Shown in pieces: positions 58,801 through 60,153 of a stretch of 64,000 nt of DNA. The notes beneath the pieces are model-generated. The model searched no databases. It saw nothing but the letters and a program-made list of their open reading frames with translations, and had not been told where the DNA came from. A program made the position numbers and the translations under genes. Location of the stretch: NCBI RefSeq assembly GCF_036417845.1, contig NC_089979.1, forward strand, positions 122,297,415 to 122,361,414, in the 5' to 3' direction. The stretch is from Apteryx mantelli. Its lineage: Eukaryota > Chordata > Aves > Apterygiformes > Apterygidae. Each line of letters opens with the position of its first letter. The first letter of the stretch is position 1.

Positions 58801-60153
58801 ATTTAATAACTGTTCAGAAACAAACAAACCAACCAACCCCATGGCAGCAGCCAGGCTGTAGGAAGGTGTCAACTGCAACTTGAAGAAACAACTTTCTGCA
58901 CAGACAAAAAAGTTAAAAACTCCACTCATGCTTTTCCACTCAAAGGAAAAGCCTGCTCCTTCTCCTTTGAAAAGGGGGAAAAAAAGCTTCATTTGAAAAG
59001 GAAATAAGGGAAAAGCTGAAACCTGGAAGAAGCTACCATATGATGCACCTATAGCTCCTATACGATGCACGTGCAAGCTTCCTTGAAGTCCTCAGCTAGT
59101 TTAAGTAGAAGCTGAACAGTTACTCAGTGAAGCCTCATACAGCCCCACCAAGACTGGTCATCGGTCCTCAGCCACCCCCACACACGTGAGGCACATTGGG
59201 AGGAAGAACCAGTAACCCTGCTATTGCACTGCGGAGGCTGCGCCCCCAGCCAGGCTACCCTGCTGCCCCCAGCCCCCAAGCTCACCACACAGTCAGTATA
59301 TAAAACACCTCAAGGATCAAGTACCCTCAAGCAGCAGCTGATTTTGCCAAGAAGTTCTTTGAAATCTTGATTGCACTGTGCTGTTGGAAAGCTTTCATCC
59401 TGCCTGTAACACAGCAGGGGGAGGGTTTCCTTCTTGTAACCAGTGCGGGGCAAGTGAAGGAGTTTTTTTTTTTTTTTTTTTTTTTTTAAATAAAGCATCT
59501 TTATTGCAAAGCTGCAGGAAACTTACCTGTAAACCCACCTGAGCACCTCCTACTCATTTAGGTTCAAAACTTTCATTACCCTGTATGTGTACGGTCTTGG
59601 TTGACAGTCTTAGAGGCTTGATTAACCCCCATAAAATAATAATAATAGAAGGGGGGGACACTAATATATGCCTTTTCGCAGCCTGCCTTTCAGGAGACAG
59701 GTTCTAGATGCAATCTGCAGCTTCAAGCCCGCGCACGTAGCAAGAAGTTTGCAGTGACAGCAGAGATGATGCAACACCCTAGCGCTGGCATTTCAAGTAC
59801 AGTCTTATACCCCCCCCCCCCCAAAAAAAAATCCATAACCCCCCAACACCAGTGGCAGCGAGGAACGACCGATTCAGTCGGGCACCCCTCGGCCGCCTCG
59901 GGAGGCGACACCCTCCTTAAAGGGGCCGGCGGCCGCCCCCCCGCGCACGCACCTGTAGGCGGGCAACCGCGCAGAGCGCCGCCGAGGGGCTGCTCAGCAG
60001 GAGCCTCTGCCGCAGCAGGTTGCTGCCGTAGGCGAAGTACAGGCCGCCGCCGCCGCCGCCGCCGCCGCCGCCGCCGCCGCCGCCGCCGCCGCCGCCGCCG
60101 CCGCCGCCGCCGCCGCCGCCGCCGCCGCCGCCGCCGCCGCCGCCGGGTTCCAT
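49654..60153 (-). CDS. GGCT: GGCT, gamma-glutamylcyclotransferase (whole gene, 4 coding exons)
   Basis: Cytosolic enzyme that converts gamma-glutamyl amino acids to 5-oxoproline plus the free amino acid in the gamma-glutamyl (glutathione) cycle. Coding exons in transcript order are 60153-59953, 55697-55552, 51983-51848 and 49803-49654, with intron phases 0, 2, 0 and all GT-AG. The joined frame gives 210 residues (human 188). After Met-Glu-Pro comes a run of 34 glycines, then the substrate-binding signature [10 protein letters not shown] (38-47). QEG at 117-119 contains the catalytic glutamate (Glu118, equivalent to human Glu98), and [14 protein letters not shown] (94-107) matches the family core. 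The C-terminus (from residue 162) is less conserved. The frame is intact. The odd feature is the glycine run, which replaces the short leader of the mammalian enzyme. Confidence 0.95.
49804..51847 (-). other. GGCT: GGCT intron 3
   Basis: A 2.0-kb GT-AG intron. It contains only homopolymer runs (A-rich at about 50700-50720, ten G at about 50905). No gene or transposon recognised. Confidence 0.85.
51848..51983 (-). CDS. GGCT: GGCT exon 3, with catalytic glutamate
   Basis: This 136-bp exon has acceptor CTTTACAG and donor AAG|GTAGGT. It completes a split Lys codon (AA|G), then reads [16 protein letters not shown] and on to GPPSPQYKK. Glu118 in QEG is the catalytic residue by family knowledge. 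PPSPQYKK is typical of GGCT. Confidence 0.96.
51984..55551 (-). other. GGCT: GGCT intron 2
   Basis: A 3.6-kb GT-AG intron. An A-rich tract broken by single C residues lies at 53083-53117. No coding sequence or identifiable mobile element. Confidence 0.85.
53083..53117. repeat. A-rich tract with single C interruptions
   Basis: Runs of about ten A separated by single C, in GGCT intron 2. It may be a decayed poly(A) tail on the plus strand, but no source element could be recognised upstream. Confidence 0.6.
55552..55697 (-). CDS. GGCT: GGCT exon 2
   Basis: This 146-bp exon has acceptor ATTTGCAG and donor GATAA|GTAGGT. It encodes [20 protein letters not shown] and on through [14 protein letters not shown] to SLD (residues 68-115), plus two bases of Lys116. 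Reading past the donor gives an immediate TAG, which confirms the splice. Confidence 0.96.
56345..56541 (+). mobile_element. CR1 LINE 3' fragment with octamer tail
   Basis: The plus strand reads GAGGTGGTGGAGTCTCC, later GGGTTGGACTAGATGATCTC and CCCTTCCAACCTCAG, then about three tandem GATTCTGT units. This is a textbook avian CR1 3' end, 5'-truncated, sense strand plus, i.e. opposite to GGCT. It is less diverged than the copy at 38 kb. Confidence 0.92.
56727..56748. repeat. Poly(A) run, 22 bases
   Basis: Uninterrupted A run in GGCT intron 1, followed by C-rich sequence. No poly(A) signal just upstream, so probably simple sequence. Confidence 0.85.
57641..57667. repeat. Poly(A) run, 27 bases
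   Basis: Uninterrupted A run in GGCT intron 1. The sequence before it (AATAATTAAA) is not a canonical poly(A) signal. It may be a retroposon tail or a slippage tract. Confidence 0.85.
59463..59590 (-). mobile_element. Possible retroposed 3' end with poly(A) tail
   Basis: On the minus strand AATAAA (59505-59500) is followed 12 bases later by 25 consecutive A (59487-59463), the spacing expected of a reverse-transcribed, polyadenylated RNA. The source RNA was not recognised, no target-site duplication was found by eye, and the upstream limit is arbitrary. It could be a 5'-truncated retrocopy or a coincidence. Confidence 0.35.
59953..60153 (-). CDS. GGCT: GGCT exon 1, with 34-glycine run
   Basis: ATG at 60153-60151 has a good Kozak context (A at -3, G at +4). 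It is followed by GAA CCC, 34 GGC codons, then [20 protein letters not shown] to ARLQ, and donor CAG|GTGCGT. The frame stays open upstream with another in-frame ATG at 60237-60235, but that one lies inside a CCAAT-type promoter box and has a poor context, so the 60153 start is preferred. Confidence 0.88.
60043..60144. repeat. Perfect (GCC)34 trinucleotide repeat
   Basis: 102 bases of uninterrupted GCC on the plus strand (GGC on the coding minus strand) within GGCT exon 1. It codes for glycine in the GGCT frame; the antisense frames would give arginine or other homopolymers. Expect length polymorphism and assembly uncertainty. Confidence 0.97.

Follow-up and report, generated by a model that had tools for sequence, protein, structure and literature searches.

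Can a conserved enzyme be produced with 34 glycines ahead of its catalytic core, and does its gene have any way of leaving them out? This question is raised by the GGCT gene of Apteryx mantelli, whose first coding exon carries a long, pure GGC run. The window analyzed here is the whole stretch of 64,000 nucleotides, to which positions refer unless another locus is named. In the reading preferred below, to which a probability of about 0.68 is given, a GGC microsatellite has expanded by slippage in the single-copy GGCT gene and is translated as a flexible tail, the enzyme still working and its output being lowered. The confidence attached to this reading and to each of its alternatives should not be read as exclusive shares.

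The tract and the GGCT gene

Read on the plus strand, the tract is a perfect (GCC)34 at 60043-60144 (34 units, counted by script), and Tandem Repeats Finder places it at 60043-60145, with a period of 3, 34.3 copies, and 100% matches. On the minus strand, this gives 34 GGC codons, with ATG-GAA-CCC as the 5' neighbour and CTG-TAC-TTC-GCC-TAC-GGC-AGC-AAC as the 3' neighbour, and the translation of 60153-59953 (minus strand) is MEP-G34-LYFAYGSN. The initial annotation had described a pure run of 34 GGC codons between Met-Glu-Pro and LYFAYGSN in the GGCT frame, and was right in both coordinates and count. The run is in frame with an AUG and with a conserved domain; it sits in the predicted main reading frame, with the start codon on one side and the catalytic core on the other. 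The gene is laid out as follows:

59953..60153, minus strand: GGCT coding exon 1, with Met-Glu-Pro, 34 Gly, and LYFAYGSN...ARLQ, ending at the donor GTGCGT
60043..60144, minus strand: (GGC)34 tract, residues Gly4-Gly37 of GGCT (repeat finder, count, and translation)
60019..60030, minus strand: codons for YGSN, residues 42-45, the active-site loop of the GGCT fold (role described in PMC7022552)
55552..55697, minus strand: GGCT coding exon 2, with AG acceptor and GT donor, containing Met106, the next AUG
51848..51983, minus strand: GGCT coding exon 3, with QEGV and the catalytic Glu118 (human Glu98)
49654..49803, minus strand: GGCT coding exon 4, terminating with ...KNIPSA and the stop codon

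These four coding exons have canonical splice sites and matching phases, and together encode 210 amino acids. Residues 37 to 199 match human GGCT (E ~2e-70) from human residue 17 on, with 110 identities over 170 aligned residues, and YGSN 42-45 and Glu118 align with human residues 22-25 and Glu98, the YGS(N) motif and the catalytic Glu both being described for the GGCT fold (PMC7022552). The GGCT-fold profiles PF13772 (1.8e-30) and PF06094 (1.2e-8) are matched as well, each passing its curated cut-off. The gene is intact, with YGSN and the catalytic Glu retained. Human GGCT (PDB 2I5T, 2PN7, 3CRY, 2RBH) shares this core, with its YGSN loop and its catalytic Glu, behind a leader of 17 residues; the shorter leader attributed to mammals at this position by the initial annotation is, therefore, borne out for the human protein, whose match starts at residue 17. 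This human leader is not known to contain a glycine run.

GGCT is a single locus. A genome-wide protein search with exons 1-3 as the query gave three matches among six candidates, all of them here, and no second exon with the exon-1 core peptide was found in the window or in the genome. A retrocopy or second haplotype of GGCT, considered as a record of an earlier leader, did not appear genome-wide with the same query. In GGCT intron 1, positions 59463-59510 start with T25 and, on the minus strand, read AATAAA, a short spacer, and A25; this suggests the 3' terminus of a retroposed element or transcript copy within the intron.

The surroundings also identify the gene. An exon at 35412-37232 (minus strand) encodes NACHT, HD2, and NOD2-type winged-helix domains, while a RING exon at 3682-3867 (plus strand) has ZNRF1 as its best PDB match (1.5e-17). 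Mainly from their position, we take the NACHT exon to be NOD1 and the RING exon to be ZNRF2, as opposed to close paralogues. Their presence alongside GGCT in the window fits the conserved order Znrf2-Nod1-Ggct, and places GGCT in its orthologous position: Nod1 is described as lying between Znrf2 and Ggct in all species investigated except frog, the chicken Nod1 being on chromosome 2 (PMC3791470). The beta-globin of this genome likewise marks its host as a bird: it scores 290-306 bits against 12 distinct PDB sequences, the best of which are those of emu, ostrich, chicken, goose, duck, and other birds, and falls to 247 and 245 bits for the two that follow, beginning with a tortoise (matches cut at E 1e-70). 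At 47799-47902, a 10-mer, AGGAAAGGAG, is repeated in 10.5 copies with 98% matches and adjoins a GC-rich stretch that, by its position, may be the NOD1 promoter.

Length and origin of the GGC run

The length of 34 units is that of one assembled haplotype. To place it among other GGC runs, exact patterns were counted as overlapping matches over the whole genome (1.504 Gb, 408 contigs), giving 1269 matches for (GGC)10, 974 for (GGC)11, 170 for (GGC)22, and 40 for (GGC)34. The difference between the first two counts corresponds to about 295 runs with at least 10 units. Six runs genome-wide reach at least 34 units (46, 42, 41, 38, 37, and 34), GGCT being the shortest of the six.

These counts bear on whether the 34 units could reflect misassembly, or else a rare long allele in place of a far shorter typical one (say, fewer than 15 units). 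GC-rich microsatellites are difficult to sequence and assemble, a single haplotype is represented, and most GGC runs fall short of this length, six of the ~295 with 10 or more units attaining at least 34. Nevertheless, pure runs measuring 37 to 46 units are present at five other loci of the same assembly, and the large contigs, such as the window's own (C2, 173 Mb), suggest a long-read assembly, so that we hold an artefact or a rare allele to be unlikely. Tandem amino-acid repeats are reported to be scarcer in chicken proteins than in mammalian ones (961 vs 1,703-1,940 in orthologues; PMC2718493), so that a tract of this length is a little more surprising in a bird.

Twelve of the runs outside GGCT were examined, comprising all five others of at least 34 units and seven of 22-27 units among the matches listed. 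Only one of the 12 has an ATG ahead of the tract in the glycine frame, as read on the unspliced genomic sequence, and its frame stops directly after the tract. GGCT is, thus, the only one of the 13 examined runs that joins an ATG, polyglycine, and a conserved protein. A Pfam search on the glycine-frame ORFs was blank for 12 of 12 other tracts, and likewise blank for the GGCT exon-1 ORF taken alone, so that it has no power to set GGCT apart and the comparison relies on the in-frame ATG. The existence of long pure GGC runs at several other loci fits a mutational and not a gene-specific origin, by general slippage in GC-rich DNA. The sequence around the GGCT start is of this kind:

59850..60400, no strand: CpG-rich stretch, with a CpG observed/expected ratio of 0.94 without the tract vs 0.30 for the window

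The tract itself counts 34 CpGs, and replication slippage in this CpG-island first exon would have produced the 34 pure GGC units.

Several of the other runs have features of their own. The one run of the 12 whose glycine frame does contain an ATG ahead of the repeat (L013, G000:C44:71404000-71408200, 2035-2418, minus strand) is a (GGC)41 read from an upstream ATG, with TGA directly after it, a layout resembling the upstream-ORF-like polyglycine frame of NOTCH2NLC. The longest run, of 46 units (L011, G000:C4:40346900-40351100), lacks an ATG in its glycine frame, while an ATG flanked by G at both -3 and +4 opens an alanine frame there, MAAEGPTPARQRRGGR-A46-GKGKC.... At L015 (G000:C2:46539000-46543100), a 23-unit tract stands directly before an ATG, on the strand opposite to the GGC reading, and is probably 5' UTR; this ATG opens a sequence, MAVDAFLGKWCLVSSEGFEDY, which we take to be fatty-acid-binding-protein-like. 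At L016 (G000:C2:100579200-100583300), (GGC)26 passes directly into about 14 GTT units soon after an apparent splice donor, and is probably an intronic compound microsatellite.

The purity of the GGCT tract suggests recent growth or ongoing homogenisation. With no change in 34 third positions, its age is bounded (95%) at ~88, 44, or 22 Myr for assumed rates of 1e-9, 2e-9, or 4e-9 per site per year, respectively. The initial annotation had read recent expansion or ongoing slippage from this purity, but purity is weak evidence of recency, as the bound at 2e-9 is only the ~44 Myr above and slippage homogenises a repeat anyway. Such bounds, which reach back tens of Myr at the assumed rates, leave time for selection to have long maintained the glycine leader in bird GGCT, for instance as a solubility or interaction tail. 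This is quite improbable, since all 34 tract glycines are encoded by GGC without interruption, whereas the 14 other glycines of the gene use three codons (GGC 5, GGA 6, GGT 3), and pure runs of similar length occur elsewhere in this genome, the glycine frame having no ATG in 11 of the 12 examined.

Initiation around the tract and the predicted tailed enzyme

An expanded coding microsatellite will only yield a polyglycine tail if translation begins ahead of it. The elements concerned are the following:

60151..60153, minus strand: start codon ATG, with A at -3 and G at +4, a favourable Kozak context (printed sequence)
60040..60042, minus strand: CTG codon (Leu38) directly 3' of the tract, a putative near-cognate start for a tail-less, YGSN-keeping enzyme
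60236..60240, minus strand: putative CCAAT element, beginning 87 bases before the GGCT ATG

Nine bases separate the A of the GGCT ATG from the first GGC. Upstream of it, the only in-frame ATG within the open frame, at 60237, was considered as a start and set aside: it overlaps the CCAAT element, so that transcription probably begins downstream and this ATG is probably untranscribed. An out-of-frame ATGTAG (a start followed by an immediate stop) is present at 60273-60278 (minus strand, ATG at 60278), upstream of the CCAAT element, and is relevant only with transcription starting further upstream.

The in-frame methionines of GGCT are residues 1, 106, 147, and 165. YGSN lies right beside the tract in exon 1, ahead of the next methionine, residue 106, so that any AUG after the tract loses YGSN, and no AUG bypasses the repeat while keeping the catalytic loop. 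A working GGCT initiated at an AUG would have to carry the 34 glycines, which is a logical result and not proof of translation. An alternative first exon as the source of a working enzyme was rejected for the same reason, YGSN lying in exon 1 beside the tract. The initial annotation had named transcripts starting downstream of the repeat, or an alternative first exon, as what would overturn its proposal; this objection is weakened, as the catalytic YGSN loop would go too.

Judging by the codons present, the only tail-less route seen that would preserve the YGSN loop is near-cognate initiation at the CTG of Leu38. That most GGCT is made in this way, the repeat serving as a 5' leader, is very improbable: this CUG is the first codon past the tract, has G at -3, would give (M)YFAYGSN with the catalytic loop kept, and has a parallel in the non-AUG initiation supported by FMR1 CGG-repeat leaders (PMC8918734, PMC9410890), but it has T at +4, requires leaky scanning across the entire tract, and would compete with an upstream AUG that is in favourable Kozak context (A at -3, G at +4) and precedes every other in-frame AUG downstream of the CCAAT element.

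With translation from that AUG, as the coding-microsatellite reading supposes, the predicted enzyme is of 21.3 kDa, vs 19.3 kDa without the tail. The 34-glycine tail, probably disordered, would precede the first core strand, and the core is expected to fold and to remain active. The most probable cost, by analogy with the androgen receptor, would be a lower protein output caused by the structure of the GGC repeat so close to the start codon. For the RNA, folding gives a long GGC hairpin of -95.8 kcal/mol (151 nt), while dinucleotide shuffles average -94.2 (z -0.51), with 63 of 200 folding at least as well. The hairpin that the initial annotation had expected from such a repeat is, therefore, predicted, but is no stronger than those of dinucleotide shuffles. 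A special RNA structure of the tract was rejected on these energies, and any structural effect would stem from composition and not from a special design.

Polyglycine precedents and significance

A coding GGC tract giving polyglycine in a main ORF is of a kind already known from the androgen receptor, and GGCT would be an added case. As in GGCT, the GGN/GGC repeat of androgen receptor exon 1 belongs to the main ORF, where it codes for polyglycine within a conserved protein. This repeat is length-polymorphic in primates, with 14-24 mentioned for three species and 27 glycines for one construct, and protein abundance from androgen receptor constructs is inversely correlated with polyglycine length, hairpin interference being proposed as the cause (PMC9642029). 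GGCT differs in being a small metabolic enzyme, with its tract right after the start codon and composed of 34 pure units; its length may likewise vary between individuals. The titles and abstract openings among the literature matches listed name no GGCT glycine tract, and the one match combining GGCT with a CGG repeat concerns FMR1 carriers.

The parallel with FMR1 and NOTCH2NLC, drawn by the initial annotation, holds for the polyglycine products, but theirs come from upstream ORFs (PMC8918734), whereas the GGCT tract is in the main ORF. FMR1, the FXTAS gene, resembles GGCT in that FMRpolyG is made from CGG repeats, and polyglycine beyond ~30 residues is described there as aggregation-prone (PMC8918734); it is unlike GGCT in its near-cognate initiation and its upstream ORF (PMC8918734), GGCT having an AUG. 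In NOTCH2NLC, uN2CpolyG is closer to GGCT in having an ATG shortly before the GGC run (15 nt vs 9 nt in GGCT), each GGC being read as glycine (PMC8918734). Nevertheless, the NOTCH2NLC repeat, which underlies neuronal intranuclear inclusion disease, belongs to an upstream ORF, normally counts ~12 units, and is toxic in its expanded form. To our knowledge, no disease is associated with the GGCT glycine tract. Since the FXTAS/NIID type is a repeat in an upstream ORF of the 5' UTR, and the GGCT tract is not, androgen receptor polyglycine is the closer precedent.

The tract is real as sequence, and it is probably an expanded coding microsatellite. How much it matters biologically hinges on 34 units being the usual allele and on the tail being made; with a rare allele or a wrong length, this is an ordinary coding microsatellite. 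It is conceivable, though we lean slightly against it, that the usual allele of a healthy bird specifies polyglycine of the length at which FMR1 products are aggregation-prone (at least 30), translated from the enzyme's own AUG with no bypassing AUG. If true, this would offer a natural model of polyglycine tolerance and dosing, in which slippage of the tract would tune the GGCT level between individuals. A conserved single-copy enzyme without another AUG by which to avoid polyglycine would put tolerance to a natural test, and would also lend itself well to the question of whether enzyme dosage is tuned by such a coding repeat.
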